From: an uncultured Alphaproteobacteria bacterium
GTDB lineage: Bacteria > Pseudomonadota > Alphaproteobacteria > HIMB59
Assembly: GCA_902527045.1 (NCBI GenBank)
Contig: CABZNL010000004.1
Coordinates: 30,739 to 94,738 of the forward strand
Reading direction: 5' to 3'
DNA length: 64,000 nt
Part shown: positions 8,873 through 50,929 of the stretch, in pieces
How positions within the stretch are numbered: position 1 is the stretch's first letter
Layout of the letters: the number at the start of each line of letters is the position of its first letter
Program-made: the position numbers and the translations under genes
Notes under the pieces: model-generated
Told to the model about the DNA's origin: nothing
The model's database searches: none
The model's input: only the letters and a program-made list of their open reading frames with translations

Positions 8873-10441
8873 TTATATACCTTTAATATTTGAGATGCTA
8901 ATCTCAGAAACTCCCTCTTGCATATTGGAGTTATTCTCAAAGTTTAATATTTTATTACATGCATTGATATAAGATTTTGCTGAAGCAACTATAATATCTA
9001 TATCAGAAGCCTTACCAATAAATTCTTTATTCAAATATTCAAGTTTTACAGTAACTTCTCCCTGTGCATCAGAGTCCGGTGTAATGGCGTTAATGTGATA
9101 AAGCACCAATTTTGGAGAAAAACCTACTACTTTAGAAATACAACTAAATACGGCATCAACAGGACCATTTCCAGACCCACTGACCTCTTTTAGCTTTTCT
9201 TTAAAATCTAGTTCTAAAGAAGCTACATGTTTAGAGTTAGTGCCAGACATGATGCTTAAATTTTTAAGTTTTAAAGTATTAGATTTGTTAAAATGCGTGT
9301 CATCTACAAGAGCAATTAAATCCTCATCATAAACATCTTTTTTCTTGTCTGCTAAAAGCTTAAATTTTTCAAAAATTTCATTGATGTAATTATCACCTAC
9401 TTCATATCCTAGAATTTTAAGTTTTTCTTTAAATGCGTGTTTTCCTGAGTGTTTACCAAGCACCAAGCTAGATTTTTTTAAACCAATTGTCTCTGGGGAC
9501 ATAATTTCATAAGTTTGAACATTTTTTAGAACACCATCTTGATGTATCCCTGACTCATGAGCAAAAGCGTTAGCACCTACAATTGCTTTATTTGGTTGAA
9601 CAGGAAAACCTGTAATTGAAGATACAAGTTTTGATGTTTTTGAAATAGCACTTGTATTAATATTGGACTGAACTTTTAAAAGATCTGATCTAACTTTCAT
9701 AGCCATTACAACTTCTTCTAAGGCTGCATTGCCAGCTCTTTCACCCAATCCATTTATAGTACACTCAATTTGTCTTGCACCGTTTTCTACTGCATTTAGA
9801 GAATTTGCAACTGCTAGACCTAAATCATTGTGACAATGAACAGAAATTATTGCTTTATCAATATTTGGTACGTTGTTTTTAACTTTTTTTATAATCTCCC
9901 CGAATTCAAATGGTAAAGTATATCCGACTGTATCAGGGATATTTATTGTTGATGCACCACTTTCTATTGCTAATTCTATGCACCTATAAAGAAAATCAAT
10001 CGAGGATCTCCCACCATCCTCACAGCTCCATTCAATATTTGGGCATAGGTTTCTTGCAAAAGAAACACTATCTTTAATTTTGTCAAGCACTTGGTCTTCA
10101 GTTAGTTTTAATTTGAATTCCATGTGTATAGGGCTAGTGGCTATAAAAGTATGTATTCTTGGATTTTTTGCTTTTTTTACAGCATTCCAAGCTGCTTCAA
10201 TATCTTCATGTTTTGCTCTCGCCAATCCTGCTATCTGACAATCCTTGATTTCATGGGCAATAGCTTGAACAGAGTTAAAATCACCCTTTGAGGCTATTGG
10301 AAAACCAGCTTCAATAATATCAACTTTTAGCTCTTCTAATAATCTGGCAATAGAGAGTTTCTCTTCTTGATTCATAGAAGCACCAGGAGATTGCTCTCCA
10401 TCTCTTAGAGTCGTATCAAAAATTAATACTTTATCTGGCAA
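8873..10441 (-). CDS. leuA: 2-isopropylmalate synthase
   Basis: FDTTLRDGEQSPGASM, SVHCHNDLGLAVAN, NAFAHESGIHQDGVLK. Confidence 0.97.
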   Translation of the reverse strand: MPDKVLIFDTTLRDGEQSPGASMNQEEKLSIARLLEELKVDIIEAGFPIASKGDFNSVQAIAHEIKDCQIAGLARAKHEDIEAAWNAVKKAKNPRIHTFIATSPIHMEFKLKLTEDQVLDKIKDSVSFARNLCPNIEWSCEDGGRSSIDFLYRCIELAIESGASTINIPDTVGYTLPFEFGEIIKKVKNNVPNIDKAIISVHCHNDLGLAVANSLNAVENGARQIECTINGLGERAGNAALEEVVMAMKVRSDLLKVQSNINTSAISKTSKLVSSITGFPVQPNKAIVGANAFAHESGIHQDGVLKNVQTYEIMSPETIGLKKSSLVLGKHSGKHAFKEKLKILGYEVGDNYINEIFEKFKLLADKKKDVYDEDLIALVDDTHFNKSNTLKLKNLSIMSGTNSKHVASLELDFKEKLKEVSGSGNGPVDAVFSCISKVVGFSPKLVLYHINAITPDSDAQGEVTVKLEYLNKEFIGKASDIDIIVASAKSYINACNKILNFENNSNMQEGVSEISISNIKGI

Positions 10442-32670: not shown

Positions 32671-34116
32671 CTAATCATCAACAACCATTGTATCTTTTGA
32701 GCCACCGCCCTGTGAGCTATTTACAATAGTGCTACCTTTTTTCAAAGCGACCCGAGTTAAACCGCCCATAGTCACGTAAGTTTCCTTGCCAGATAAAATA
32801 AACGGCCTTAAGTCTTGATGCCTTGGCTCCATACTACTTCCTTGAAGTGTAGGAGTGGTTGATAAAATTTCCAAAGGTTGAGCTATATAGTTTCTTGGGC
32901 TATGCATAATCTTTCTGGTATATGTATCCCTTTCTGATTTTGTAGCTTTAGGCCCAACTAATATTCCGTAGCCACCAGAGCCGTCAGCAGGTTTTACAAT
33001 CATTTTTGACAAATTAGCTATGACATGATCTCTTTGTTTTTTATTATTACATAAAAAAGTTTCTACTTGATTAAGTTTAGGCTCTTCATCTAAATAATAT
33101 TTAATCATTTTTGGAACATAAGAATAAATGACTTTATCATCAGCAACGCCACTACCTGGGGCATTGATCAGACCTACATTTCCTTTTCTATAGGATTTGT
33201 ACAAGCCAGCAACCCCCAAGAGTGACTCTTTGAAGAAAGTTTTAGGGTCTAAAAAAGTATCATCAATTCTTCTGTATATGCAATCTACTCTTAGTCCCCC
33301 TTTAACTGTCTTCACATAAACTTTATCATCTTCTACATACAAATCCTTACCTTCAACCAATGCAACTCCCATTTGCTGAGCTAAAAAAGAGTGTTCAAAA
33401 TACGCAGAATTGTAAACTCCGGGAGTTAATACAACCATTGTTGGAGTATTTTTTTTATAAGGAATGGCATCTACCATGCAATGATATAACCTATTGCAAT
33501 ATTGATTGATGGAGGAAACTCTATAGCGAGTAAACAACTCAGGGAAAACTTCTCCCATTACCATTCTGTTCTCTAACATATATGATACGCCTGAGGGTAC
33601 CCTCAAATTATCCTCTAAAACTAAAAACTCCCCCTTTATATTTCTTATTAAATCTATTCCAGAGATATGAGACCAAATTTTTCTTTTAGGTTTGAAACCT
33701 TCGCATTGTTTTAAATAATTTTTTGAGTCAAAAACTAATTCGTAGGGTAATACCTTGTCTTTAAAAATTTTTTTATCATTATAAACATCGTTGATAAAAA
33801 TATTCAATGCCTTACATCTTTGAATTAGCCCTTTTCTTACTTTCAACCATTGTGTCCTTAATATTATTCTTGGTATAATATCTAATGGCCATTTTTTTTC
33901 TTCTGCAGCATTTTTATCAGCAGAGTAAACTTTGAAATTAATGCCTCTGGAACTGATAGTACTCTGGCAATTTTTTTCAATTTTAATTAAATCTTTACTT
34001 GAATAACTATTTAATATTTTTGAAATTACTTTTGCTTCTTTTCTGAGTTTTCTATCGGGTGTAAGATACTCATCATAACTATTTTTAGAGTTGTAATTAT
34101 CCCAACTTATAGACAC
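32671..34116 (-). CDS. circularly permuted ATP-grasp type 2 family protein (DUF404/DUF407)
   Basis: VLEDNLRVPSGVSYMLENR, KPADGSGGYGILVGP, C-terminal SSQGGGSKDTMVVDD. Confidence 0.9.
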   Translation of the reverse strand: MSISWDNYNSKNSYDEYLTPDRKLRKEAKVISKILNSYSSKDLIKIEKNCQSTISSRGINFKVYSADKNAAEEKKWPLDIIPRIILRTQWLKVRKGLIQRCKALNIFINDVYNDKKIFKDKVLPYELVFDSKNYLKQCEGFKPKRKIWSHISGIDLIRNIKGEFLVLEDNLRVPSGVSYMLENRMVMGEVFPELFTRYRVSSINQYCNRLYHCMVDAIPYKKNTPTMVVLTPGVYNSAYFEHSFLAQQMGVALVEGKDLYVEDDKVYVKTVKGGLRVDCIYRRIDDTFLDPKTFFKESLLGVAGLYKSYRKGNVGLINAPGSGVADDKVIYSYVPKMIKYYLDEEPKLNQVETFLCNNKKQRDHVIANLSKMIVKPADGSGGYGILVGPKATKSERDTYTRKIMHSPRNYIAQPLEILSTTPTLQGSSMEPRHQDLRPFILSGKETYVTMGGLTRVALKKGSTIVNSSQGGGSKDTMVVDD

Positions 34117-34221
34117 ATTGATAAAATACAGTAATTGAGAGTTACTGGTTATGCATTGTTTAGATTGCTAATATGTAAATATTCGTTTGTATTTATTTGA
34201 AATAAGCTATTTAATTGATTA

Positions 34222-34947
34222 ATGACTTATTGTGTGGGCATTAAGGTTAATGAAGGAATGGTTTTCGCATCTGACAGAAGAACTAATGCAGGACTTGATA
34301 ATTACAATTCATACTCAAAAATGTATGTGCACAATGGTATTGATAGAAATATTATTATTTTAACATCAGGAAATTTAGCCACATCTCAAGCTGTTTTTAA
34401 TTCAATAAACAAAGATTTAGAAGACCCCATCAACGGAAATAGCCTAAATAATCTTTATAACCTCAATGAAATTGCTAAATATATTGGAAGATTAACTGTC
34501 CAACACTCTTCTCCAGATGGTATAAATCAAGTAACTTTAGAGCTTGGATCAACGTTTATCGTAGGAGGACATATTAAAGATCAAGACTCTGATCTTTATT
34601 TAGTTTATCCACAAGGAAATTTTATTAAATCAAGTGATTTTAAACCTTATCTTGTAATTGGTGAAATAAAATATGGTAAGCCAATCTTAGATAGAGTTGT
34701 TAAGTCTGATACTTTTCTAGGAGATGCCGCAAGATGTGCACTGATAAGTATGGACAGCACTATGAAGGCAGACTTGTCTGTTGGACCTCCTATTGATTTA
34801 GTGGTCTACAAAAACAATATGTCAAAGATTGTTTATCAACAATCTTTAGAAGTCAGTGATGATGATTATCAATACATATCTAAGCAATGGGAAAAAGGAA
34901 TATTTGAAATTTTTAAATCTTTTGATCGTTTTAAATGGGAAGATTAA
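34222..34947 (+). CDS. Anbu-type proteasome-like peptidase
   Basis: MTYCVGIKVNEGMVFASDRRTNAGLDNYNSYSKM, Ntn-hydrolase proteasome-type fold; divergent from ATP-grasp gene. Confidence 0.88.
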   Translation: MTYCVGIKVNEGMVFASDRRTNAGLDNYNSYSKMYVHNGIDRNIIILTSGNLATSQAVFNSINKDLEDPINGNSLNNLYNLNEIAKYIGRLTVQHSSPDGINQVTLELGSTFIVGGHIKDQDSDLYLVYPQGNFIKSSDFKPYLVIGEIKYGKPILDRVVKSDTFLGDAARCALISMDSTMKADLSVGPPIDLVVYKNNMSKIVYQQSLEVSDDDYQYISKQWEKGIFEIFKSFDRFKWED

Positions 34948-36945: not shown

Positions 36946-37020
36946 GCCGCCGTAGCTCAGTGGTAGAGCACACCCTTGGTAAGGGTGGGGTCGGAAGTTC
37001 AATTCTTCTCGGCGGCACCA
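36946..37020 (+). tRNA. tRNA-Thr(GGT), CCA encoded; integration target
   Basis: Cloverleaf; acceptor gccgccg/cggcggc, anticodon stem-loop caccc-ttGGTaa-gggtg; 3' fragments repeated at 38725 and 43442. Confidence 0.97.
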
Positions 37021-37023
37021 TAT

Positions 37024-38448
37024 TTAAAATCCAGCTTGTACTCTAGAAGGTACTGACTCTTTTATTTTTTGAGAGATTAATGTTTCACATGAATAATCTA
37101 GATTACCTATACCCAAATCTTCACAATTTCTGGCAAAATGTATTTCGTCTGCAAAATATTCTTGGTGAGAATAATCTAAAAAAGATCCGTAGATACCAAA
37201 GTGAAATGCTACCTTGTTTTTATCTTTTTCAATACCGGGTAACTGCTCCCATAATGTTTGATTGTTTTTTGATATAACAAGTTCACCGTTCATCCAAATT
37301 TTATGAAAGGCTTGATCTATATTTTTATTATCAAAATTAATATTAAAGACAAAGTCATACCAGCTATTTCTTTTTATCTCATCAGTTTTTAAAATTGTGT
37401 ATTCTTGGAATTGTGCATTACAAAATTGATGTTTATTTTCACCGCCTGCCCCTGGAGAGCAATTATTATTACCCTCTGGATATAATTTAATACCTTTAGC
37501 TGAGTCATGTGTCCATATTAAACCTCTACTTTTAACTATATCAAGCATAAACATTGGTGGTAAATAGTCGTAGTCACTATGAAATTGTAAAAGTGCTTTT
37601 TTCATAGTCGGCATTTCAAATTTATCTGGTAAGTAAAAAGAAAAGCTAACCCAAACATTTCCTACAAATCCAGTATCATGTCTTGGCTCAACTCTTTTTT
37701 GTTTTTCACCATTTGGGCGTTTACAATCCTCATCTCTTTGAAAACATTCGTCACCTGGGGCTTGAATAAAAAAAGATGTTTCTCCAAAACGGGTTGGTGA
37801 ACTTACAACAGAAAATAATTTAATATTTTTTTTATTTTCATATGCTTGCATCTCCTTTCTACCTGTAACCCACCAGTCATTCCAGCCTTGTAAAGTTGTG
37901 TCATTAGGATTTTCTATTCCAAGATTTTTTTTATATAAGTCATTTGAAAATGCTAAGTTATCAGAAGATAATTGTTTAAGAGTAGCTTTAATATATTCGT
38001 TAGAGTCTTGGTCGCCCCAAGGAGCCATTCCTTCATAAATTACTTCATTATCTTGATTTTTCTTTTCCAAAATAATTTTTACTTTTTCTGGACAATCGCA
38101 ATTTATATCTAAATTTCCGATGATAATAATATCGTCATTTTTTTGTATTATTTTAACGCTTTTTCTGTACTTATTTCCAATACGGACTCCGTCATTGAAA
38201 GTTATATTTTTTACCTCTCCATTTACAAAATTGACTTCATCAATTGCATCTCGCTCACTATCAGTAATTGTTTTTTTTTCATCTACGATTAATGTTTCCC
38301 ATTCTAAAAGATATGTCCCATCTATTTGAGACAAATTTGACTTTTCATAAGAATTTGGAGTGTCATCTTCAATCTGCTTACCGTCTTTGAAAGTTAATCC
38401 CCAACTCAGGGTGGGTACGAAAAACAATAAAAAGATAAACTTATTCAT
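37024..38448 (-). CDS. secreted polysaccharide lyase-like (heparin lyase I-type jelly roll) protein
   Basis: Signal peptide MNKFIFLLFFVPTLSW + GLTFKDGKQIED; VSFSFYLPDKFEMPTMKKALLQFHSDY ... NSWYDFVFNINFD ... HKIWMNGELV. Confidence 0.65.
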   Translation of the reverse strand: MNKFIFLLFFVPTLSWGLTFKDGKQIEDDTPNSYEKSNLSQIDGTYLLEWETLIVDEKKTITDSERDAIDEVNFVNGEVKNITFNDGVRIGNKYRKSVKIIQKNDDIIIIGNLDINCDCPEKVKIILEKKNQDNEVIYEGMAPWGDQDSNEYIKATLKQLSSDNLAFSNDLYKKNLGIENPNDTTLQGWNDWWVTGRKEMQAYENKKNIKLFSVVSSPTRFGETSFFIQAPGDECFQRDEDCKRPNGEKQKRVEPRHDTGFVGNVWVSFSFYLPDKFEMPTMKKALLQFHSDYDYLPPMFMLDIVKSRGLIWTHDSAKGIKLYPEGNNNCSPGAGGENKHQFCNAQFQEYTILKTDEIKRNSWYDFVFNINFDNKNIDQAFHKIWMNGELVISKNNQTLWEQLPGIEKDKNKVAFHFGIYGSFLDYSHQEYFADEIHFARNCEDLGIGNLDYSCETLISQKIKESVPSRVQAGF

Positions 38449-38549
38449 GTTAATTTTTGTTATAAAGTAACAATATTATTTTTTTTTTCAAATATTTTAC
38501 CAACAACTTTAAATTTAATAAATAATTAAGCTAATTTTATAAATTTCTC
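38441..38549. repeat. unit-end repeat, copy 1
   Basis: About 92% identical (hand alignment over the 101 non-coding bp) to copy at 43168-43276; homology continues at lower identity into the leader coding region. Confidence 0.9.
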
Positions 38550-38590
38550 TAGGGATTAATAACAATAATGTTAAAAGGGTTTTCATATGA
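38550..38590 (-). pseudogene. truncated signal-peptide leader fragment (MKTLLTLLLLIP...)
   Basis: Shares ATTGTTATTAATCCCTAG and an ATGAAxACxCT start with the leader of the 38831-40240 ORF; the similarity stops at CCCTAG and runs into the unit-end repeat. Confidence 0.7.
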
Positions 38591-38724
38591 AATTAAGTCT
38601 AATAAAAAATAATTTTAGCCAACCAAAATGTAAACAAAATGTACGAAAATTTCTGAAACTTAACTCACACTTTGGTTTGGCATTACCCAAAAGAACAAGT
38701 TTTTGTTACTTATGGTAGCAAAGT

Positions 38725-38775
38725 ACACCCTTGGTAAGGGTGGGGTCGGAAGTTCAATTCTTCTCGGCGGCACCA
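38725..38775 (+). repeat. displaced tRNA-Thr 3' fragment (att-like), 51/51 identical to 36970-37020
   Basis: acacccttggtaagggtggggtcggaagttcaattcttctcggcggcacca. Confidence 0.95.
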
Positions 38776-38830
38776 ATATTAATATTTAGATAATATTTTT
38801 GAATTAAAAAAATAAATTTAAAAATTTCTG

Positions 38831-40240
38831 CTAAAACTCTAAATCATCAAAAGTAACTTCCTGAAAAACAATAGTTTCATAGTCAATTGTTGGGAAGTTA
38901 TCTTGGTAAATAATATATGATATACCTCCAATAGATAGATTTGAGTCTATTTGAGAAACATCTTTCATTGAATATGCATTAGTGGTGGCGTATTTTTCTG
39001 TATTCCACCACCATCCAGCTTCAATATTTTGAAATCTCTCAGCTTTTTGTTTTCCAAAAGTTGCCTCATAGATACTGATCCATCCAGAGTCTGATTGAGT
39101 TCTCATCATTCCATTTGTATCAATTCTTCTTTTTGCTTGTTCGTTATCAATATCATTAATCCAACAACTTTGATAAAGATTTTTTCTTCTCTCGTCAGTT
39201 TTTTGATTTCCATATTTTCTTTCAAATTCTTTTTCATATTTCTTTTGATGGTCAAAAAATAAATTTGTATCCATAGATGCTTCATAAACTGAGTCAATAA
39301 TTTGCCCAATAGTATGATTATCAGTAAGTTTAACTTGAAAAAGATCATAGCCTTGTAATTTTAAATTCCATAGCATACTCATTACAGGCTGAAGTCCATG
39401 ATAATTATAATGAAGAGCACACTCTCCTCTTTGACTATCTAATTTAAATAAACCAGTTTCAGTAGAATTTGCCTTCATGGCTTTTAAAAAATACTTAATT
39501 GAGTCTTGAAACATTTTATTATCATTTAAAATAATACTAGCTGCCATTTTAAAGTTAAAATAATAAAAACCATGATTTGAATTAACACTTAACTCTCCAA
39601 CTCTTGATTCATTTTGGGCATAGTCATATTTACTAATTAATTTATAAATTTGAGACTTGAAATTTTTTTGGAGTTCTTTTGGTAAATCCTCTTCAATCAA
39701 AGTGAAGGTAAATAAAACTGATGTTAAGTATACTCCAATTTCATATGCAATTTGGTCATCATTTGAGGGTTTTGGGAGATTTAATAACCATTCATTTTTA
39801 ACTAAATCATTATAGAAAGATTTAAGTTTTTCCTCTCTGTCTTTTTTCCACTCATCTGCACGATATATTGATTTAGAATTAGATACAGATTTACTAGTTC
39901 TTAATACAGTCTCACACCAATAATGAATAGGGAATGCCCCGATAAGCTCAATATAATTAAAATAATTATTTTTGTTTATTTGATTTAATGAGAGCTTAGT
40001 TACATCTTGAACATCATACTTACTATATCGACACCCCCACTGAGTCTTACCAGACTCTTCTATAAATTTATTTGAGTAATTATCAAAAATAGTTTTTGCA
40101 TTATTATTTATCTTTTCAGTTAATTGATCTTTATCAATAAAAAGTAGATTGGGGTTTTTTATAACCCAATCTTTATAATTAATATTATTGGAAAAACACA
40201 AACTAGGGATTAATAACAATAGTGCTAAGAGAGTCTTCAT
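38831..40240 (-). CDS. secreted alginate-lyase-like (alpha/alpha toroid) protein
   Basis: Signal peptide MKTLLALLLLIPSLCFS; SVNSNHGFYYFNFKMAASIILND and ALHYNYHGLQPVMSMLWNLKLQGYD resemble alginate lyase PF05426-type helices. Confidence 0.55.
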   Translation of the reverse strand: MKTLLALLLLIPSLCFSNNINYKDWVIKNPNLLFIDKDQLTEKINNNAKTIFDNYSNKFIEESGKTQWGCRYSKYDVQDVTKLSLNQINKNNYFNYIELIGAFPIHYWCETVLRTSKSVSNSKSIYRADEWKKDREEKLKSFYNDLVKNEWLLNLPKPSNDDQIAYEIGVYLTSVLFTFTLIEEDLPKELQKNFKSQIYKLISKYDYAQNESRVGELSVNSNHGFYYFNFKMAASIILNDNKMFQDSIKYFLKAMKANSTETGLFKLDSQRGECALHYNYHGLQPVMSMLWNLKLQGYDLFQVKLTDNHTIGQIIDSVYEASMDTNLFFDHQKKYEKEFERKYGNQKTDERRKNLYQSCWINDIDNEQAKRRIDTNGMMRTQSDSGWISIYEATFGKQKAERFQNIEAGWWWNTEKYATTNAYSMKDVSQIDSNLSIGGISYIIYQDNFPTIDYETIVFQEVTFDDLEF

Positions 40241-40270
40241 ATGTCTTGCATTTCTTAGTTTAAATTGAAC

Positions 40271-41512
40271 CTAGTTAATATCAAAGTCTAACTCTTTAAG
40301 AAGCTGTTCTTTTTCCTTCTCTTCTACTAGGCAATGAGGGTTGAAGCCAATAGTTTCATCAATGCCGTATTGTTTTCTTCTGTTAAAATATATTTCATCA
40401 TTTTCAAGTTTAATACCAGTAAGACTCTCCATCAATACATCAATACCGATAGCATCTTGATGGGTATGTATTCTAGCTTTTGAAGGGTCATCTACCCAAT
40501 TCTTGGTCATATTTGGATTAGGATTTTTCCAAGGTCTACTTCTAAATTTATCGTAATCTAAAATAGCTAAATTTGTGACTTTTGAAGCATTAATTAATTT
40601 AGAATTAATACTTTCAGGTATATCAACACCCCAGAGTTTTGCTATATGGATATAACCCAATGTAGAGTTGAAGCCAAGTGAGTGGTACCACTGAGATCTT
40701 ACTCCTCTAAAAGAATTATTGTTAATATATCCATCTTCATAAAAATGTTTTTCAAATTCAGCAAATCTAATACTTATTTCCTCCAAAGCTAATTTAGTAT
40801 CTTCTTTCCAAGCAGCATATGCTAGAATTCCAATACCACCGTTGGCCATTTGATAAATTCCCCTACTTCTTCTTAATTTTTTTTCTGAGTATTTATCTCC
40901 AATAAATTTTTTGAACATCTTGGAGATATAAACATCGATGATCTTATACTCTTCTTCATTATAAAAATCTTTTAACCAAATTGATGCTATCATGTAATTT
41001 ATAAATACATCAGCTGCAAAATGATGTGCATGTGCCCAACATGGAGACTCAGGTCTTTCCCAACATTTATATTTTATTTTTTTTAGATCCTTATAACCAA
41101 TAGTATCAAAGAGTGTTTCTTTTTTTGCCAATTCAATAGCAATTTCTTTAGCAATTTGAATTTTTTTTGAATTACCTTCACCTACAGCGTTATGAGTTGC
41201 TATTGAAAAAGATCTCATGGGTTCGGTGATACCATCATGAACAACTGTTAAAGAAGTACTATTTTCCTCAAAATCTTTTACCCAATCATATCCAATTAAC
41301 TTTCTAATGCTCTCAACTGTAGACTGATCAGCAAATGTTTCATTGCCCATATAAGAGCAATCCTTGATTTCATCGGTATAAAACCCTTTTGCAAAAATTA
41401 TATCAGAAGATAGATTTATATTTGATTTGTCTTCCACTGCTTTTCCATCTTTAAATGTTAAGCCCCAACTCAGGGTGGGTATGAAAAAAAAAATAAAAAC
41501 AAACTTAATCAT
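40271..41512 (-). CDS. secreted polysaccharide-active (alginate-lyase-like, alpha toroid) protein
   Basis: Leader MIKFVFIFFFIPTLSWGLTFKDGKAVED; helix-rich; SRGIYQMANGGIGILAYAAW, RSQWYHSLGFNSTLGYI. Confidence 0.5.
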   Translation of the reverse strand: MIKFVFIFFFIPTLSWGLTFKDGKAVEDKSNINLSSDIIFAKGFYTDEIKDCSYMGNETFADQSTVESIRKLIGYDWVKDFEENSTSLTVVHDGITEPMRSFSIATHNAVGEGNSKKIQIAKEIAIELAKKETLFDTIGYKDLKKIKYKCWERPESPCWAHAHHFAADVFINYMIASIWLKDFYNEEEYKIIDVYISKMFKKFIGDKYSEKKLRRSRGIYQMANGGIGILAYAAWKEDTKLALEEISIRFAEFEKHFYEDGYINNNSFRGVRSQWYHSLGFNSTLGYIHIAKLWGVDIPESINSKLINASKVTNLAILDYDKFRSRPWKNPNPNMTKNWVDDPSKARIHTHQDAIGIDVLMESLTGIKLENDEIYFNRRKQYGIDETIGFNPHCLVEEKEKEQLLKELDFDIN

Positions 41513-41531
41513 CTTCTCTAATTAATATTAG

Positions 41532-43175
41532 TTATTCCAAAAGATCTTCCAGTGCATCGAGTTGGTCTGTATTTACAACCTCACTCTCAGTTAATTTACC
41601 AGTATAGTTTTCTATACCAAGATAAGCTACTTTAGACTCTCCATAAGGCATTGTTATGAAAAGCCTATAATATTGTCCGTTTTTTTCGAAAAAATTTGAC
41701 ATTCTTTCACAGCCGTAAAGACCAAAATTTTCTTTTACGAATTTATTTGTTGCGTGTTCAAAATATTCATTTTTTTGGTTTAAAAATATGGACTTTAATT
41801 GCGGAACGTTGCAAGCATTCCATGGATTATAATAACCCTGTTTGAAGCCGTATAGGTCAATAGTTCCATCTTTGTTAATATCTGCTTTTTCAATTCTGAA
41901 TGAATCATTAATTGAAGTTGGTATGATTTGATGTTTTTCAAAATTTTTATCTCCAATATTTTTAAAGATATATAAAAAAGCCTCATCTTTACAGTCACCC
42001 CCACTTCGACTAAATGGTTTTGTTATGTCATTTCTTTTACAGACAACCTCTTTTTCTAAACCAATGCTATCTACAAAACCATCTTTATTATAATCAACCG
42101 ATGAAGAAATCCATGCCCTATCAGCTTGTTTGAATTCTTTTTTATTAGAACCCTCTACCCAATAACCTGGTTTTTTTTGGACATCTCCAGTCCATATTAA
42201 AAACTTAGCTCGATCATTTGGTTTAGATTTGAGTTCATAACTATCTAATTTATTAAATATTAGCTTATTATTTTTGTAATTTATTTTTGACCAGCAAAAT
42301 GTTGTATCACCTAAATTTGGACATCCACCAAAAATAATCGCTCCATCTTTTGACGGGAGTATATGATTAAATCCAATATCAATAAATTGATTGGCATTTT
42401 TAGACTTTGTACATTTTTTTGTCTTTAAGTCACAAACCTCAATCTGTGGACCTGGATCGTAAAAATAATCAATTATTTCAAAAAATCCGTCGTTATTAAA
42501 ATCGGCATACATAAGATCGTGAGAAAAATGTGAAGAGCCAAATTTTGAAAGACTATTATCATTTAAATCAAATATGTAGTTGAAATCTTTCCAGCTACTA
42601 TCTTTACTTCTTCCATCTTCTCTATTTGACAAATATACTATTTCCTTATCTCCATCATTATCTGTATCAATTGTATCAAGCCTTCTTGCTGTAAGAGGAA
42701 GGTCATAATGGCTAGAAGATATTTGGTTTAAATTATTACTAAAAATGTCATTAATATTCGTAATATCTATGACTACCAAATGTGAAAAAGGTTGTTTATT
42801 TGAGTTATCGCCCCACGCTACAACATTATTCCAAGTATGAGTTACAATTTTTTCACCATCTTTATTGTTTATGTACCTTAAGAGTAAAGATCTGTTCCAA
42901 GTGTTAGTATCAAAGTCATGTGACTTTACTTCATATTCGTTGCTGAGTTCCTGAATAATCAAACAGTCATTTGTTTTATTAATTCTTAGAAATTCTGTTT
43001 TAAGTTTTTTACAATCAAAGGGCTTAAATGATTGTTTTTTACTATTGATTGTTTGTATTTCTGAAGATGTTTGGGAAGAGTTGGATTGAGACCCATCTAC
43101 TTGTTTGCCGTCACTAAAGGTTAGTCCCCAACTCAGGGCAGGTATGAAAAAGAATAAAAAAACAAATTTATTCAT
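41532..43175 (-). CDS. secreted FG-GAP/VCBS-like Ca-binding repeat protein
   Basis: Leader MNKFVFLFFFIPALSWGLTFSDGKQVDG; DTDNDGDKE, DFNNDGFFE, DYNKDGFVD, DINKDGTID motifs; start placed at ATG 43175. Confidence 0.75.
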   Translation of the reverse strand: MNKFVFLFFFIPALSWGLTFSDGKQVDGSQSNSSQTSSEIQTINSKKQSFKPFDCKKLKTEFLRINKTNDCLIIQELSNEYEVKSHDFDTNTWNRSLLLRYINNKDGEKIVTHTWNNVVAWGDNSNKQPFSHLVVIDITNINDIFSNNLNQISSSHYDLPLTARRLDTIDTDNDGDKEIVYLSNREDGRSKDSSWKDFNYIFDLNDNSLSKFGSSHFSHDLMYADFNNDGFFEIIDYFYDPGPQIEVCDLKTKKCTKSKNANQFIDIGFNHILPSKDGAIIFGGCPNLGDTTFCWSKINYKNNKLIFNKLDSYELKSKPNDRAKFLIWTGDVQKKPGYWVEGSNKKEFKQADRAWISSSVDYNKDGFVDSIGLEKEVVCKRNDITKPFSRSGGDCKDEAFLYIFKNIGDKNFEKHQIIPTSINDSFRIEKADINKDGTIDLYGFKQGYYNPWNACNVPQLKSIFLNQKNEYFEHATNKFVKENFGLYGCERMSNFFEKNGQYYRLFITMPYGESKVAYLGIENYTGKLTESEVVNTDQLDALEDLLE

Positions 43176-43276
43176 ATTATTTTTGTTATAAAGTAACAAA
43201 ATTATTTTTTTTTTTCAAATAATTTTCTAACAACTTTAAATTTAATAAATAATTAAGCTAATTTGATAAATTTCTC
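43168..43276. repeat. unit-end repeat, copy 2
   Basis: Homologous to 38441-38549 with constant offset 4727. Confidence 0.9.
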
Positions 43277-43441
43277 GTGTATGAAAGTCTTAATTATGAT
43301 TATCAATTTAATAAAAATGAATACCAACTTCTCGAAAAATATTCGATTTATTCTTGTAATTTATTGATATGATTTGTAATTCGTTGATACAAAATGCCAA
43401 AAAGTGTTTAATATTTCGCATTGTTTACAGGATTGCCATTT

Positions 43442-43486
43442 TTGGTAAGGGTGGGGTCGGAAGTTCAATTCTTCTAGGCGGCACCA
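43442..43486 (+). repeat. displaced tRNA-Thr 3' fragment (att-like), 44/45 identical to 36976-37020
   Basis: ttggtaagggtggggtcggaagttcaattcttctAggcggcacca; begins exactly at the anticodon loop. Confidence 0.93.
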
Positions 43487-43492
43487 ATTTAA

Positions 43493-44608
43493 TTAATTTT
43501 CCTTAGTTTGCTTATATTCCAGTTTTCTTAATTTCTTCTTTAATTTATTAATTTTTCTTGATTTTTCGATATCGTAATTTATGACAACTTCTTTTTTTAG
43601 CTTAGCTATTTCCTCTTCAATGATTTCAATTTCGCTTTTTTTATAGAAATACTCTTGCTGAGCTAACTTACTAAGACTTGAAGTAACTTCATCTTTTGTT
43701 TTACCAATTCGAATTTCATCAAAATAGACGATTGTAGTGCCACCATCTGAACCAGTTGCCCAAATATATTCTAACCAATTTCTATAAATTCCAAATTTGA
43801 TATAAGCTTTATCACCTGCTTCCCAAAGGGTTGGTCCGTAATATTCATATTTTAAAATTCCATTTGCCCATACCTTAAAAAAACCATCCTCTTTATGTGA
43901 CCATTTAAAATTCATTAAAACATCGTTCCATCTTCCAATCATTTCAGCTTTTGTAATTACAACTTTTGATACATTATCATTTGGTCCATCGCATTTACAA
44001 TTCGTGCCTTTTACATTATTAAAGGGCATGTAATTAGCATCTTTTGCTTCAAAATGAAATTTTTGAGGGTACTTTAATATTCCATTCATATCTTTGTTGT
44101 CTGTATGAAATTGGAACATTTTCAAACTTGAAGGAGAGATGGCTTTGAAGTCTTTAGGTGCATAAATTGAAAAAGAGTACCAGTATTCCCCACTGCCCCA
44201 AGACTGTCTTCCTGATAGCTCTGCTCTCTCAGATTTACCATTAGTTCTAGTGCAATCATTTGCTGGTTGATTTTCCCAACCAACCTTATTGGGATTTTCG
44301 TCAGATCCTGCGCACTCACCAGGTCTCACTTCAAACCTAATGCTTAATTTCCCATCTCTAACAGGGTGTCCTTCGTCAGAAGAAACAATTTGAATTTGAT
44401 GTTCTGTTCCTAGTGTACCCTCACTGATACTCCATTTACATCCTAATCCAGAAGAAATATCATTAGGAAGACAAAATGGTTCATTTTGATCAAAGTTTTT
44501 AGTTAACGATCCTAATAGAGTTTTTTCTGAAACTTGCTTACCGTCACTAAAGGTTAGTCCCCCAGCCAAAATAGGAATTAATAATAATATTGTTAAGAGG
44601 GTTTTCAT
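43493..44608 (-). CDS. secreted polysaccharide lyase (heparin lyase I-like, PF14099-type)
   Basis: Leader MKTLLTILLLIPILAGGLTFSDGKQVS; RFEVRPGECAGSDE...SERAELSG...GEYWYSFSIYAP...MFQFHTDNK...KVWANGILKYEYYGPTLWEAGDKAYIKFGIYR. Confidence 0.78.
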   Translation of the reverse strand: MKTLLTILLLIPILAGGLTFSDGKQVSEKTLLGSLTKNFDQNEPFCLPNDISSGLGCKWSISEGTLGTEHQIQIVSSDEGHPVRDGKLSIRFEVRPGECAGSDENPNKVGWENQPANDCTRTNGKSERAELSGRQSWGSGEYWYSFSIYAPKDFKAISPSSLKMFQFHTDNKDMNGILKYPQKFHFEAKDANYMPFNNVKGTNCKCDGPNDNVSKVVITKAEMIGRWNDVLMNFKWSHKEDGFFKVWANGILKYEYYGPTLWEAGDKAYIKFGIYRNWLEYIWATGSDGGTTIVYFDEIRIGKTKDEVTSSLSKLAQQEYFYKKSEIEIIEEEIAKLKKEVVINYDIEKSRKINKLKKKLRKLEYKQTKEN

Positions 44609-45006
44609 AATAACTGATTGGTTATTTTACACTCCATTGAATACATGGTCTTAAGTGAATTGTCTTTAAAGGTTTCACCACTTATTTCTAAAGTAAATCT
44701 ATTTAACTCAAGAATTTCAGAGTGTATTACATTCATTGAAGTATTCTCATATCTATAATGATAAATAGTTTCATCAGATTTCTCGTTATCTAAATAATAT
44801 TTTTTGTCACCATAGTCGTAATATCTTATTAAAGATTTATCATTGCTATTAAATATCAATATATGTGGATTTTTAAAATTGTGATTAATTGATTTTTCCC
44901 CATCTGGTCCAACAATCATTTCTTTTATGAAATCACATCCAAGCTTTATATCCTCACTCCAAGTCAAACTAGGTATAAGAAAAAATAAAACGATGATCTT
45001 ATTCAT
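44605..45006 (-). CDS. exported hypothetical protein
   Basis: Signal peptide MNKIIVLFFLIPSLTWSED; overlaps following gene by 4 nt. Confidence 0.6.
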   Translation of the reverse strand: MNKIIVLFFLIPSLTWSEDIKLGCDFIKEMIVGPDGEKSINHNFKNPHILIFNSNDKSLIRYYDYGDKKYYLDNEKSDETIYHYRYENTSMNVIHSEILELNRFTLEISGETFKDNSLKTMYSMECKITNQLL

Positions 45007-45106: not shown

Positions 45107-46936
45107 ATGCAAAAACATAGTCATTTTAAGCAAATTTTAGATAATATTTTATCAGATAGCGAACAATCTAACTTATCATTAGGTAATTCAAGTGACGAAT
45201 TATCAAAGCTTTGTAGGGCATTTATAATTCAATTTTATAAAGAAGATCCAGATAACAACGAGTCCTGTTCAATTTTGGAAGCTGAAAGAAATAACCCAAT
45301 ATTAAAATTATTTGAAAATTTTTTTAATATTGATGAGATAAATATTTCTAGTCTTTCAAAGTCAACTTCAAAAGATCATATGTGGAATTTATTTTGTCCA
45401 GAAGCTGTTGAGGCATCTGAAGATTCAAATGCGTTATCAAAGAAATTATTAGAAAAAAGGAAATTAAATAATATCAAAGAGAGTGAAAATTTATTAACAA
45501 ATCCATCAAAAGAAATTTTATTTTCAAGTAATGTGCTAATAACTACTCCTTTAGATTTTTCTTCCACAAATATTCCTGAAGAAATTAAATATGAAGTACA
45601 AGAATATAAAAATCTTAATCAAAGTTTTTGGTATGATCATCCTATCCCGTTAGATGCATCAAAAGATGAAAATGAAATTATATATGGATTGGAAAATCTT
45701 GATAATGCTTTGGCTTTTGAAGTTCAAAGAGGTAATATTGATAAATTAGATAAAATTACTCTTATTTTATCAGTCTCTGTCACGCATCAAGGATTAGAGA
45801 AAATTGCACTTAAATACATAAAATCCATAATAAAAAAACATTTAAAATTAAAGCATATCGACCTCTTTTTATATGATGAAGATACTTGTAACAAAATTAC
45901 CTTATCAGTATTCCCTGATAAACATCAAACTAATAACATTATGGGCGTAAATGGAAATTATGGGCGACATTTTACTTTTTTAAAATACATACTACTGCTT
46001 TGGAATAAATTTGTGGACTCAAAGATGAGATATAGCTTTAAAATAGATCTAGACCAAATTTTTGATCAAGAGGTTCTTTTTAAAACAACAGGATTTTCAA
46101 TTTTTGAGATTTTTAAAAATCAAAAATATTGGGGTGGTACAGCTACCGATCAAGAAGGAAACAATGTTGATCTTGGATTATTAGCAGGTGCTTTGGTAAA
46201 CAAAAAAGATATCTCACAAGGCTTGTTTACACCAGATGTAAAAAGACCAATAAATAAAGATTTATTTTCTAAGTTTTCTTCAAAGAAAATTTTTTGTCCG
46301 GAGTGGCCTCAATCAGTTTCTACTGAAACAGAGGTAATGTATAAGTCAGATGATATTCAAAGAGTCCATGTAACTGGTGGTACAACTGGGATAACTTTAG
46401 ATAGTTTAAAAAAATGGTCACCCTTTACTCCTAGTTTTATAAATAGGGCAGAGGACCAAGCTTTTGGTATTTCCACTATTCAAGAGAATGAATATTTAAG
46501 TCACTGTCATGGAAAAGATTTAATTATGAGACATGACAAACATGCTTTCGCTACAAGAAGTATTGAAATATCTAAAATTGGAAAAGAGATTGGAAACTTA
46601 GAGAGAATATTATTGTTCAGTAATTACGCTCATATACATGAATTAGGTTATGACAAATTAAAACATAGGTTATGGCCATTTACTTCATCCTTTCTATCGA
46701 AGTATCCTGAACTTTTAACCGGGCTTATATTTTTAATTGATGGATGTTTTAATGGAGGTGACTATGTCATCTCTGGATCGAAAAGATTAATGGATACTCA
46801 TATTTTTTGTAAAACAAAATTAAATACACAACTTCAAAATGAAAAAGTTTTTTGGAAAGAGCTTGTGCAAAGATTAGAGAATTTCAACGATTCTAATAAT
46901 AACCTCAAATCAATTATTAGATCAAATAAGATCTAA
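45107..46936 (+). CDS. large uncharacterised protein, possibly glycosyltransferase-like
   Basis: 609-aa ORF; family not recognised. Confidence 0.6.
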   Translation: MQKHSHFKQILDNILSDSEQSNLSLGNSSDELSKLCRAFIIQFYKEDPDNNESCSILEAERNNPILKLFENFFNIDEINISSLSKSTSKDHMWNLFCPEAVEASEDSNALSKKLLEKRKLNNIKESENLLTNPSKEILFSSNVLITTPLDFSSTNIPEEIKYEVQEYKNLNQSFWYDHPIPLDASKDENEIIYGLENLDNALAFEVQRGNIDKLDKITLILSVSVTHQGLEKIALKYIKSIIKKHLKLKHIDLFLYDEDTCNKITLSVFPDKHQTNNIMGVNGNYGRHFTFLKYILLLWNKFVDSKMRYSFKIDLDQIFDQEVLFKTTGFSIFEIFKNQKYWGGTATDQEGNNVDLGLLAGALVNKKDISQGLFTPDVKRPINKDLFSKFSSKKIFCPEWPQSVSTETEVMYKSDDIQRVHVTGGTTGITLDSLKKWSPFTPSFINRAEDQAFGISTIQENEYLSHCHGKDLIMRHDKHAFATRSIEISKIGKEIGNLERILLFSNYAHIHELGYDKLKHRLWPFTSSFLSKYPELLTGLIFLIDGCFNGGDYVISGSKRLMDTHIFCKTKLNTQLQNEKVFWKELVQRLENFNDSNNNLKSIIRSNKI

Positions 46937-46999: not shown

Positions 47000-47599
47000 A
47001 TGGGTTTAGAAATTAGAAAATTTGTAAACTACTCTGAATTAGTTCATATAGAAGGTTTTAAAAAAGCTGATAAGCCTCTGCATATATTTGCTGTTGCAGT
47101 AGTCATAACAAATCCTTGGTCTGGTAAATATATTGGCGATTTAAAACCTGAAATACATTCATTTGCCCCCATTCTCGGACAGGAATTATCAGAGAGAATA
47201 CTTAAGATAGCTGGAGGCCCTGATCACATTGAAGCGTACGGGAAAGCTGCAGTAGTTGGAACTGAGGGGGAAATTGAGCATGGTTCTGCCTTTACTCACA
47301 CTCTTAGATTTGGAAACTTTTTTCGAAATGCAGTTGATGCAAAAACTTATCTAATTTTTACAAACACCAGAGGTCCAGCTAATGCCCCTATAATGATACC
47401 CTTGATGGACAAACACGATCCTGGCAAAAGATCTCATTATCACACAATTCAATTTGCAATTTCAGATAGTCCAGCTGCAAACGAAATTGTTATTGCTTTG
47501 GGTGGAGCTGATGGTGGAAGACCCCATCATAGAATTGGAGATCGATATCAAGATTTAAAAGAACTTGGTAATGATATCGATGATCCTGCGAAAAAATAA
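47000..47599 (+). CDS. amino acid synthesis family protein (PF06684-like)
   Basis: GGPDHIEAYGKAAVVGTEGEIEHGSAFTHTLRFGN...GRPHHRIGDRYQDL. Confidence 0.75.
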   Translation: MGLEIRKFVNYSELVHIEGFKKADKPLHIFAVAVVITNPWSGKYIGDLKPEIHSFAPILGQELSERILKIAGGPDHIEAYGKAAVVGTEGEIEHGSAFTHTLRFGNFFRNAVDAKTYLIFTNTRGPANAPIMIPLMDKHDPGKRSHYHTIQFAISDSPAANEIVIALGGADGGRPHHRIGDRYQDLKELGNDIDDPAKK

Positions 47600-48395
47600 A
47601 TCTCAAAACGGTATTGCTTTTCATAAATCTGGCAAAGGAGATCCGATTATTTTAATTCATGGTCTTGGACTCAGCGCAGAGTGTTGGTACAAACAAATTT
47701 CTGTTTTGAAAAAAAATTATACTGTTTATGCCTTAGATTTACCCGGACATGGTAAAAGTGATCTTTTATCACAAGCAAAACCTCAATTAAAAAACTACAG
47801 TAATAAAATAATAAATTTTATTAAAGATAAAAAAATTATTAAGCCGATTTTAATTGGACACTCTTTGGGAGCCTTAATAACTATACAAATAGCAGGTCGA
47901 AATACAAAACTATTAAAATCTGGTATCGCTGTATCACCAATTTTTAATAGATCAAAATTAGCTTTAAAAAAAGTTCAAGCTAGAGCTAAAGAGTTAGCAT
48001 TGAATACTGATAAAAAAAATATTGCTAAGGAGCCTCTTAAAAGATGGTTTGGTTCGTATAAAACTAAAATTGCTCTTGATAATTATAAATTTGTTGAAAG
48101 TTTAATTAAAAATAATAAAAGATCATTTAATTATAAAGGGTACTCGATTGGTTATAAAACTTTTTCAGAAATTAAAGGAAACACCAATGAGGTAATTAAG
48201 AAAATTAAATGTCCAATGATGTTCATCACAGGTGATAAGGATCAAAACTCCTCTCCTATGATGTCAAAAAAATTAGCTAAATTTCATAACAGTAAAATAA
48301 TCATTATAAAAAATGCAAGGCATGCTTTATTTTTAACACATTTCAATCAATTTAATTTTCATTTAAATCAATTTATTAAGGGTTTAGAGTACTAA
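47565..48395 (+). CDS. alpha/beta hydrolase
   Basis: PIILIHGLGLSAECWYKQI; LIGHSLGALITIQ nucleophile elbow; true start probably 47571 or 47580. Confidence 0.88.
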   Translation: MVMISMILRKNKSQNGIAFHKSGKGDPIILIHGLGLSAECWYKQISVLKKNYTVYALDLPGHGKSDLLSQAKPQLKNYSNKIINFIKDKKIIKPILIGHSLGALITIQIAGRNTKLLKSGIAVSPIFNRSKLALKKVQARAKELALNTDKKNIAKEPLKRWFGSYKTKIALDNYKFVESLIKNNKRSFNYKGYSIGYKTFSEIKGNTNEVIKKIKCPMMFITGDKDQNSSPMMSKKLAKFHNSKIIIIKNARHALFLTHFNQFNFHLNQFIKGLEY

Positions 48396-48410
48396 CAGGT
48401 TAATCAAATT

Positions 48411-49448
48411 ATGAAATTTTCCTTATTCGTTCATATGATCAGAGATAATGCTGATCAATCATACACTCAATTATATGAGGATTTCATTAGTCTGTGCCAA
48501 ATGGCAGATCAAAGTGACATGAGAGCAATTTGGACTGGTGAGCATCATGCGATGAACTATGCGATTGCTCCAAATCCATTTATTACTATTGCTGATCTCT
48601 GCCGATATACAAAGAAGATAAAATTGGGAACAGGAACGCTGATCGTTCCTTTTTGGCATCCAATTAAATTAGCTGGGGAGGCGGCCATGACTGACGTCTT
48701 GTCTAACGGCAGATTAGAATTAGGCCTTGCTAGAGGGGCTTACTTATATGAATACGACAGAATTATACCTGGAATGGACGCGATGGAAGCTGGTTTGCGC
48801 ATGAGAGAAATAGTTCCCACACTTCAAAAGTTATGGAAGGGTGATTATGCTCATGATGGAAAATATTTTCAATTTCCAAGCACAACTTCTGTTCCTAAAC
48901 CTTTACAGGATAATGGACCTCCAATATGGATAGCAGCCAGAGACCCTAATAGTCACGAATTTGCAATAGCTAATGATTGGGATGTTCAAGTAACGCCACT
49001 ATGGAAAGGCTTTGATGAAATTGAGAGATTAAAAAATATATTTGATGATATATGCGCCAAATATTCTGATAAAACAAAACCATTATCTATGGTACTCAAT
49101 CATTGTTATATAGGTAGTAATGATGATGACATACATAAAGGGGCTGTTGCCGTATCAAAGTTTTATAATAACTTTGGTGCTTGGTTTAAAAACAATCGAT
49201 CAGTTGTCCAAGGAACAATGGATCCTCTTACTCAAGAGGAGTTAAATAGTAATAAAATGTGTTCACCAAATGAGATGAAAAAAAATCAAAATATTGGAAC
49301 CTTAAACGAAGTTATTGATACTATAAAACAATATGAAGATTTAGGCTTTGATGAATACTCTATTTGGATTGACTCTCACTTAAGTATAGAAGATAAAAAA
49401 GTTTTTTTAGAAAGATTTATCTCTGATGTAATGCCTCAGTTTCAATAA
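48411..49448 (+). CDS. LLM-class (luciferase-like) flavin-dependent monooxygenase
   Basis: MRAIWTGEHHAMNYAIAPNPF, LGTGTLIVPFWHPIKLAGEAAMTDVLSNGRLELGLARG. Confidence 0.92.
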   Translation: MKFSLFVHMIRDNADQSYTQLYEDFISLCQMADQSDMRAIWTGEHHAMNYAIAPNPFITIADLCRYTKKIKLGTGTLIVPFWHPIKLAGEAAMTDVLSNGRLELGLARGAYLYEYDRIIPGMDAMEAGLRMREIVPTLQKLWKGDYAHDGKYFQFPSTTSVPKPLQDNGPPIWIAARDPNSHEFAIANDWDVQVTPLWKGFDEIERLKNIFDDICAKYSDKTKPLSMVLNHCYIGSNDDDIHKGAVAVSKFYNNFGAWFKNNRSVVQGTMDPLTQEELNSNKMCSPNEMKKNQNIGTLNEVIDTIKQYEDLGFDEYSIWIDSHLSIEDKKVFLERFISDVMPQFQ

Positions 49449-50929
49449 TGGAAAAATTAAATAATCACTATCAACTTTATATTAACGGGGAATGGTCATC
49501 CGGGTCCAAAGGGCAAATAATGCAATCTGAAAATCCCCACAATAATAAACCTTGGGCTAGTTTTGATTGTGCTAGCAAAGAAGATATAAATGATGCAATA
49601 GTTTATGCAAGAAAAGCTCTAGCTTCTGAAGCTTGGGGTTCGTTAAATGCCACTGAAAGAGGAAAATTATTATTTAAACTTGCAGATTTAATTGAAAAAA
49701 ATGCAGATAAAATTGGAGAGATAGAAACAAAGGATAGTGGAAAATTATTAGCTGAAACTGTTACACAAACAAAATATGTCTCTGAATATTATAGATATTT
49801 TGCAGGATTAGCTGATAAGATTGAGGGCTCTACTCTACCTATCGATAAGAAAGATATGCATGTTTACACAACACGCCATCCAATTGGTGTAGTGGCTGCT
49901 GTTGTCCCTTGGAATGCTCAAATGTTTCTAACAGCTACGAAATTAGCACCTGCTCTAGCTGCAGGATGCAGTGTTATAATAAAAGCATCAGAAATAGCCC
50001 CATGTGCGATGTTTGAATTATCAAAATTAATCCATGAAGCTGGCTTCCCAAGAGGAGTAGTATCGATAGTAACTGGCGATGCAGAAAATTGTTCAGAACC
50101 TTTAACATCACACCCTGATATTGATAAAATAGCTTTTACTGGAGGTACTGACACAGCTAAAAAAATTATACAAAATTCCTCAAATAATTTTGCTGCAACT
50201 AATTTAGAGCTTGGTGGAAAGTCTCCCATGATTATTTTTGATGATGCTGACATTGAGGGTGCAGCAAATGGAATAATCGCAGGAAACTTTGGTGCCTCCG
50301 GACAGTCTTGTGTAGCTGGTAGTAGAGTAATAGTAGATAAAAAAATATCAAAAAAAATAATTGATTTAATTGTTCAAAAATCAAAGTCAATTATTGTAGG
50401 AGATCCTGAAAATTCAAAAAGCAATCTAGGACCTCTTTGCACAAAAAAACAAATTCAAAAAATTGAACAAATACTAAAAAAATCAATTCAACAAGGAGGA
50501 AAAATTATCATTGGTGGAAATAAAATTAGTGGAGAAGGTAATTACTTTGAACCAACTTTAATACATTGTACAAATAGTGAAATCGAAACACTTAAAATTG
50601 AAATGTTCGGGCCAGTGATCTCAATTATAGAGTTTGAAAATGAGGAAGAAGCAGTCAAAATTGCAAATAGCACAAAATATGGACTTGGGTCAGGAATTTT
50701 TACAAAAAATTTAGCTAAAGCGCATCGTGTATCAAGACAAATTCGAGCAGGAATTTGTTGGATAAATACATATCGAGCAATTTCCCCTATAGCTCCTTTT
50801 GGAGGTTTTAATCAATCTGGCTACGCAAGAGAGGCTGGAAAGCATTCCATTTTTGATTACACGAGAACAAAGACTACCTGGATTAATATATCTGATGACC
50901 CCATGACTAATCCTTTTATTATGAGGTAA
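49448..50929 (+). CDS. aldehyde dehydrogenase
   Basis: NLELGGKSPMIIFDDAD, GNFGASGQSCVAGSR, GPVISIIEFENEEEAVKIAN. Confidence 0.95.
   Translation: MEKLNNHYQLYINGEWSSGSKGQIMQSENPHNNKPWASFDCASKEDINDAIVYARKALASEAWGSLNATERGKLLFKLADLIEKNADKIGEIETKDSGKLLAETVTQTKYVSEYYRYFAGLADKIEGSTLPIDKKDMHVYTTRHPIGVVAAVVPWNAQMFLTATKLAPALAAGCSVIIKASEIAPCAMFELSKLIHEAGFPRGVVSIVTGDAENCSEPLTSHPDIDKIAFTGGTDTAKKIIQNSSNNFAATNLELGGKSPMIIFDDADIEGAANGIIAGNFGASGQSCVAGSRVIVDKKISKKIIDLIVQKSKSIIVGDPENSKSNLGPLCTKKQIQKIEQILKKSIQQGGKIIIGGNKISGEGNYFEPTLIHCTNSEIETLKIEMFGPVISIIEFENEEEAVKIANSTKYGLGSGIFTKNLAKAHRVSRQIRAGICWINTYRAISPIAPFGGFNQSGYAREAGKHSIFDYTRTKTTWINISDDPMTNPFIMR

Follow-up and report, generated by a model that had tools for sequence, protein, structure and literature searches.

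The tRNA-Thr(GGT) gene of the window, a 64,000-nucleotide stretch of DNA from an uncultured HIMB59 bacterium, is probably (at roughly 70%, in our estimate) a site at which cargo cassettes without an integrase gene have accreted through site-specific recombination that takes place within the 7-bp anticodon loop, in either polarity and by means of a phage integrase supplied in trans. The window is part of a 94.7-kb contig from a 1.15-Mb genome that is ~82% complete. HIMB59, which corresponds to AEGEAN-169 or SAR11 subclade V (PMC10308909), is an abundant group of surface ocean waters. A route anchored at tRNA genes may allow its cells to acquire and shed genes for secreted polysaccharide lyases and for restriction-modification. 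The phosphate islands of AEGEAN-169/HIMB59 have been published as being without tRNA boundaries (PMC10734472). The tRNA end described below is also carried by single-cell genomes of uncultured Alphaproteobacteria (AG-numbers) and by 'Pelagibacteraceae' records.

Stacked units next to the tRNA-Thr gene

As listed in Table 1, the intact tRNA gene is followed by two copies of its 3' end in the same orientation. These copies had been described in the original prediction, and their identities to the tRNA (51/51 and 44/45) as well as the start of the second copy at the first base of the anticodon loop, at 43442, were confirmed. Searching for the 45-nt 3' end of the tRNA with up to three mismatches gave three sites in the window (36976-37020, 38731-38775, and, with one mismatch, 43442-43486), against a chance expectation of 0.00 in 100 shuffles. 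Across the genome to which the window belongs, searched by pattern matching only, the motif occurred at these three sites, at one unrelated site with three mismatches, and nowhere else. ARAGORN calls the region of fragment 1 (38699-38775) a tRNA as well. The loop sequence, with its flanking stems, is a textbook core for a tyrosine recombinase (PMC8371274).

Table 1. Features of the tRNA-Thr(GGT) locus in the window
Feature	Position	Strand	Remarks
Intact tRNA-Thr(GGT), target site	36946..37020	+	ARAGORN
Anticodon loop TTGGTAA	36976-36982	+	Flanked by stems CACCC and GGGTG
Unit 1, 1755 bp	37021..38775		One gene, phage-type attP arm and displaced tRNA 3' fragment; without integrase
c1, 474 aa, secreted polysaccharide lyase	37024..38448	-	PF14099
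A-class attP arm	38623..38730		91.7% identical to L194/L206 over 84 nt; homologous to marine phages that look temperate
Displaced tRNA-Thr 3' fragment 1	38725..38775	+	tRNA positions 25-75, 51/51
Unit 2, 4711 bp	38776..43486		Three genes, distal end and displaced tRNA fragment; without integrase
c2, 469 aa, alginate-lyase-like	38831..40240	-	PF05426
c3, 413 aa, secreted protein	40271..41512	-	No Pfam family matched
c4, FG-GAP repeat protein	41532..43199	-	PF13517
Displaced tRNA-Thr 3' fragment 2	43442..43486	+	tRNA positions 31-75, 44/45
Older layer, c5 (371 aa) and c6 (133 aa)	43493..45006	-	c5, PF14099
609-aa gene	45107..46936	+	Starts ~16 nt past the full tRNA in L044 (G003)
Four-gene block	47000..50929	+	Next to the full tRNA in L042, in degraded form

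The genes of units 1 and 2 are all directed towards the tRNA and have signal-peptide-like starts, and the regions upstream of c4 and c1 are 94% identical over 71 nt. The arm at the distal end of unit 1 contains the tandem repeat AACCAAAATGT/AAACAAAATGTA. On the tRNA-proximal side of this unit no arm was seen and the stop codon of c1 lies ~4 bp from the tRNA end, which counts against the cassette reading; c1 is tRNA-proximal in a relative (L073) too. The window's own genome encodes two tyrosine recombinases, both Xer-like by size and sequence.

Insertions on both sides of the tRNA in related genomes

Units have been inserted and stacked at tRNA-Thr. The locus was compared across 40 genomes from within the genus (HIMB59/AEGEAN-169), the majority of them single-cell assemblies; each tRNA-Thr was accompanied by zero to three displaced fragments. 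Counting displaced pieces in normal orientation, and leaving out L038 as well as one inverted copy (in L077), we found 22 scars, those of the window included, 14 of which were 3' and eight 5' fragments. Empty sites and alternative units, both anticipated in the original prediction, were present, mostly bounded by 45-52-nt copies of the tRNA-Thr 3' end. In L069 and L052 the c5 flank adjoins the full tRNA, and in the window it adjoins fragment 2; the region 37021-43486, and with it units 1 and 2, is therefore a precise insertion relative to both genomes and later than c5. The earlier suggestion that the units nearest the tRNA are the youngest fits the order of units 1 and 2 against the c5 layer, to which we limit it, but the identity gradient offered in its support (100% then 98%) rests on a single nucleotide and dates nothing. 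A second empty and filled pair is formed by seven genomes in which chromosome from ~50957 directly follows the full tRNA (L040, L046, L049, L065, L067, L070, and L077) and four in which this flank adjoins a fragment (L048, L054, L058, and L072). Further pairs are L039 versus L056/L075, L060/L066 versus L064, L050 versus L045, and L044 versus L069.

The stack of two units that had been predicted is real, but the array extends past 43486, since the c5 flank, 45107-46936, and 47000-50929 each adjoin a full tRNA in some relative, and these are read here as deeper layers. The 47000-50929 block is missing from L049-type genomes, where the tRNA is followed by the chromosome, and alternatively this block and the 45107 gene may have been lost by deletion in the other lineages.

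Eight of the insertions lie on the upstream side of tRNA-Thr, and each has left a 5' half ending at the loop. Where an insertion lies upstream, the rebuilt tRNA has a promoter region of another type; over the tRNA-Thr loci, this region was of the native type in 21, of the P1 type in nine, and of the P2 type in five. Breakpoints across the relatives fall within TTGGTAA, the seven nucleotides of the anticodon loop: 3' fragments mostly start at tRNA positions 29-31, and of nine 5' fragments, seven extend to position 37, with which the loop ends, one extends to position 38, and the ninth belongs to a divergent tRNA. An assembly artefact is unlikely, as single-cell genomes that are independent of one another show matching junctions.

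We consider it improbable that these arrangements spread mainly by homologous recombination between conserved flanking genes and shared leader or promoter regions, with site-specific insertions being rare and ancient. Such exchange could account for the different coding domains that are joined to shared leader and upstream regions, for cargo that is about as similar as the flanking genes (92-94% and 91-95%, respectively, between the window and L069), and for the fact that the window and L073 share c1 and the proximal end and differ distally. However, homologous recombination alone does not produce new, precise anticodon-loop junctions in many different units and in several tRNA species.

Integrase genes and classes of units

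An integrase gene was present in one of the 22 scar-bounded units (L056) and absent from the other 21, and genus-wide, L056 was the sole integrase found within a tRNA-Thr unit. Since the assemblies are mostly incomplete single-cell genomes, an integrase elsewhere in a genome could be missed, which counts against a helper acting in trans. No Pfam resolvase (PF00239) was found in the genus. The smallest units measure 0.23 kb.

Classes of units were defined by the sequence beyond the displaced tRNA half. Class A occurs in both polarities, as 3' type in the window, L073, L069, and L045, and as 5' type in L067 and L048. Its end is non-coding; a small ORF in the arm was rejected because the copies do not conserve it. 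Class C consists of restriction-modification (R-M)-type units (L054, L061, and L064) that have their tRNA-proximal end in common with L056, and PADLOC detected C5-methyltransferases in L064, L048, and L054, the last of which also has a restriction enzyme. The arm shared by the L054/L061 class contains the repeats GGGTACAC-TTTT-GGGTACAC, after which all that is left of the L056 integrase gene in L054 and L061 is its first codons, as if the gene had been lost through deletion. L056 also encodes a Gp2.5-like single-stranded DNA-binding protein, and with its integrase this makes it look like a small satellite. No relative of the L056 integrase was found among the viral contigs, and its best matches in phage records had ~32% identity. 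In G033, an A end is joined to a C-like end via a bare core without tRNA, as would be expected if attP sites recombine with one another.

A phage attachment arm in class A units

Judged by its sequence, unit 1 ends distally in a copy of an attP arm that belongs to uncultured temperate phages. A 25-mer of the class A end was found exactly in 18 IMG/VR contigs, and in each of them the 7-bp core comes next, and then either TGATAGGTC or TGAAAGGTC. In 16/16 contigs that are long enough, the distance between the core and the end of a tyrosine integrase gene is 78-86 nt; the other two contigs are cut short. Genes near this integrase encode a repressor-like protein, a terminase small subunit, an Erf-like protein, an exonuclease, and an endolysin, so the contigs look like temperate phages; the sole DNA match to a cultured phage was a 62-bp stretch shared by L193 and pelagiphage HTVC010P. 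The core reads TTACCAA in nine contigs and TTGGTAA in the other nine, and L197 differs from L203 and L207 in this respect although they are 99.3% identical over 3 kb and have the same 60-nt flanks on both sides. Between chromosomal units and phages, the arms are up to 100% identical over 110 nt (L067 versus L195) and 99.1% identical over 113 nt (L048 versus L205). The unit 1 arm misses ~10 nt of the phage version and may no longer be functional. Among 385 Alphaproteobacteria from 276 genera, the A arm was confined to the HIMB59/AEGEAN-169 genus. The array links an uncultured group of apparently temperate phages to a host and to a 7-bp attachment site.

The viral contigs gave no match to probes for the C arm, the D arm, and the end of unit 2, and the phage-type integrase was not found in 52 genomes of the genus in a search run without a positive control. 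Neither c1 or c5 cargo proteins nor an exact match to a 39-mer from the 3' half of the tRNA were found in the viral contigs, so transfer in virions is unsupported.

The main rival explanation is that the units are fossil scars, left by autonomous prophages or satellites that integrated at tRNA-Thr and lost most of their genes, so that attL or attR and later host genes remained and nothing was moved in trans. CIMEs originate by such decay (PMC5704250), the integrase remnants in L054 and L061 would fit it, and some tRNA fragments are indeed decayed (positions 53-75 in L059 and 31-70 in L069). However, in 7/7 copies of the A arm the homology to phages begins 118-120 nt from the core (in phage coordinates), with none beyond, whereas random decay would give varied endpoints, and this common boundary speaks against scars. 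In addition, the near or full identity of some arms to present-day phages is hard to reconcile with fossils, and the A' arm expected from a prophage on the other side was present at none of the tRNA-Thr junctions. We therefore regard fossil scars as unlikely, and favour insertion of cassettes by an integrase acting in trans.

A model for cassette insertion

A cassette would consist of one phage-type attP arm, a core (TTGGTAA or its inverse TTACCAA), half a tRNA (the 3' half, or the 5' half together with a promoter), and one or a few payload genes, such as those for polysaccharide lyases and other secreted proteins. A tyrosine integrase supplied in trans would recombine the cassette core with the chromosomal loop. 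This would restore the tRNA on one side and push its former half to the far end, so that cassettes would stack. The orientation of the core would set whether the cassette lands downstream or upstream of the tRNA. A phage integrase that joins arm and core with the tRNA-Thr loop would in this way give precise breakpoints, both polarities, and cassettes without an integrase. For unit 1 of the window and five other units, the helper would most likely be the integrase of a temperate HIMB59 phage with the same arm and core. Unit 2, stacked likewise, has a distal end outside the recognised classes and without a phage match, and the proposal of a helper does not extend to it.

We infer that the integrase acts in trans, that cassettes pass through circular forms and are transferred between cells, and that flipping of the core switches polarity. 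Neither an excised circle nor a circular junction was encountered, which counts against the model. The simplest idea for the flip would be mismatch tolerance in the near-palindromic overlap TT-GGT-AA, and the sequence pairs with opposite cores offer natural material on whether a tyrosine integrase can act on an inverted overlap. The junction of a circular cassette would be expected to read A-arm/TTGGTAA/GGGTGGGGTCGG, and that of a cassette in a phage cointegrate A-arm/core/tRNA half ... A-arm/core/TGATAGGTC. More tentatively, and with odds that we place somewhat below even, the whole may form a phage-driven, integron-like cassette system on tRNA anticodon loops, in which the near-palindromic TTGGTAA would let one integrase insert both ways, with flipped attP cores as a by-product, and integrase-less host cassettes, made up of the phage arm and either tRNA half, would ride on it and so carry secreted enzymes that degrade polysaccharides from one HIMB59 strain to another, at several tRNA genes. 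With regard to integrons or CALINs, the junctions in the array are tRNA halves.

Relation to known systems

The array is a variation on tRNA islands, CIME accretion, and phage satellites, all of which are known already. As in the tRNA islands listed by Islander, where tandem arrays are known, there is a full tDNA with a displaced fragment and a crossover in the anticodon loop (site class A), which in that catalogue applies to 2083/3919 islands (PMC4383910). Islander requires an integrase gene and a size of at least 2 kb, whereas the window units contain no integrase, only one of the 22 units in the genus does, and sizes go down to 0.23 kb. Furthermore, 5' fragments make up 159/3919 of the Islander cases (PMC4383910), compared to 8/22 of the scars here, at the same tRNA that takes 3' units. 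CIMEs are likewise att-flanked, integrase-less elements stacked in tandem at a tRNA (PMC5704250), and here too att sites lie at both ends, and integration and transfer genes appear to be absent. Unlike CIMEs, the units showed no ICE/IME relatives, their arms match phages, they are inserted on both sides, and the payload is often one gene. As to ICE/IME kinship, one putative integrase satellite (L056) shares an end with the R-M units. With phage satellites or hitchers the comparison lies in the attP arm and core, which are common to the cassettes and the phage family.

Additive flexible islands and tycheposons also occur in streamlined aquatic hosts, with repeated tRNA pieces in a flexible island and metabolic cargo, but in the accessible part of that report (PMC10872708) tycheposons are 4-200 kb in size and carry their own tyrosine recombinase, a combination that the window units do not show, and the repeats of the additive island consist of 20 bp of tRNA-Lys, with no phage attP arm reported there.

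The A-arm phages resemble those that undergo tRNA-dependent lysogeny (PMC10865867) in that they share just the 7-bp core with the tRNA and, in 18/18 contigs, do not rebuild it, whereas the cassettes do. A phage-borne tRNA of the same isotype is a hallmark of this type of lysogeny (PMC10865867), and L195 encodes a tRNA-Thr(GGT) of its own (55/75 identical), the only one among the 18 partial contigs. Since tRNA-dependent lysogeny is known from actinobacteriophages, the A-arm phages are a candidate for its occurrence outside Actinobacteria, which the authors of the concept called an open question (PMC10865867).

Other tRNA genes in the genus

Based on selected loci, the array at tRNA-Thr seems to be an instance of a genus-wide pattern, given the leader loci, displaced halves, and loop breaks found elsewhere. 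The secreted-protein leader FFFIPTLSWGLTFKDGKQV occurs in 40/52 genomes of the genus, and 8/12 other leader loci, picked non-randomly by match strength and clustering, contain a tRNA gene. Displaced tRNA halves were present in three of these eight (L182, L192, and L191, the latter with two 5' halves in tandem). Among the junctions read, fragments of five other tRNA species break at the anticodon loop or within 3 nt of it. Integrase-bearing elements elsewhere in the genus have left either 5' halves (L164 and L166) or 3' halves (L162 and L167-L172).

A leader shared by secreted proteins at the tRNA-Thr hotspot

The window genes c1 (unit 1), c3 and c4 (both unit 2), and c5 (older layer) encode otherwise unrelated secreted proteins that start with the same leader, and the conserved stretch GLTFxDGKQ after this leader is likewise common to all four. 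The DNA upstream of c1 and c4 is near-identical. Within the genus, the leader is present in 40 of 52 genomes, in 1-6 copies.

Other loci of the genus

In locus L191, a tRNA-Arg(ACG) is accompanied by two 5' halves in tandem (positions 1-39, 100% identical) and also by a leader-type gene, and it is a second stacked array, with 5' polarity. The tRNA-Thr of L038 (genome G012) has a mismatched anticodon stem (GTCAT/GGGTG), as if integration had fused two tRNA-Thr alleles into a chimera. The tRNA-Thr fragment is inverted in L077, and the flank order close to the tRNA is inverted or rearranged in L077, L051, and L042, which suggests inversions between att sites. In L161 (genome G033), a bare core, TTACCAA, joins an A-class (phage-type) end to a C-class-like end, and a tRNA was not found in the 14.7 kb of this locus.

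The R-M-type units L048, L054, L061, and L064 are adjoined at their distal end by c21, a small conserved gene (65-71 aa) that is a possible excision factor; the L064 copy had no family match.

Coordinates of the features
Sequence	Position	Feature
Window	32671-34947	481-aa protein, then proteasome-like subunit (241 aa, PF00227); adjoins hotspot
Window	37024-44608	starts of c1, c3, c4, c5
L161	near 11545	A/C end junction
L191	8023-10872	tRNA-Arg(ACG) array, leader-type gene
L195 (viral contig, 15.5 kb)	9992-10066	phage-borne tRNA-Thr(GGT)
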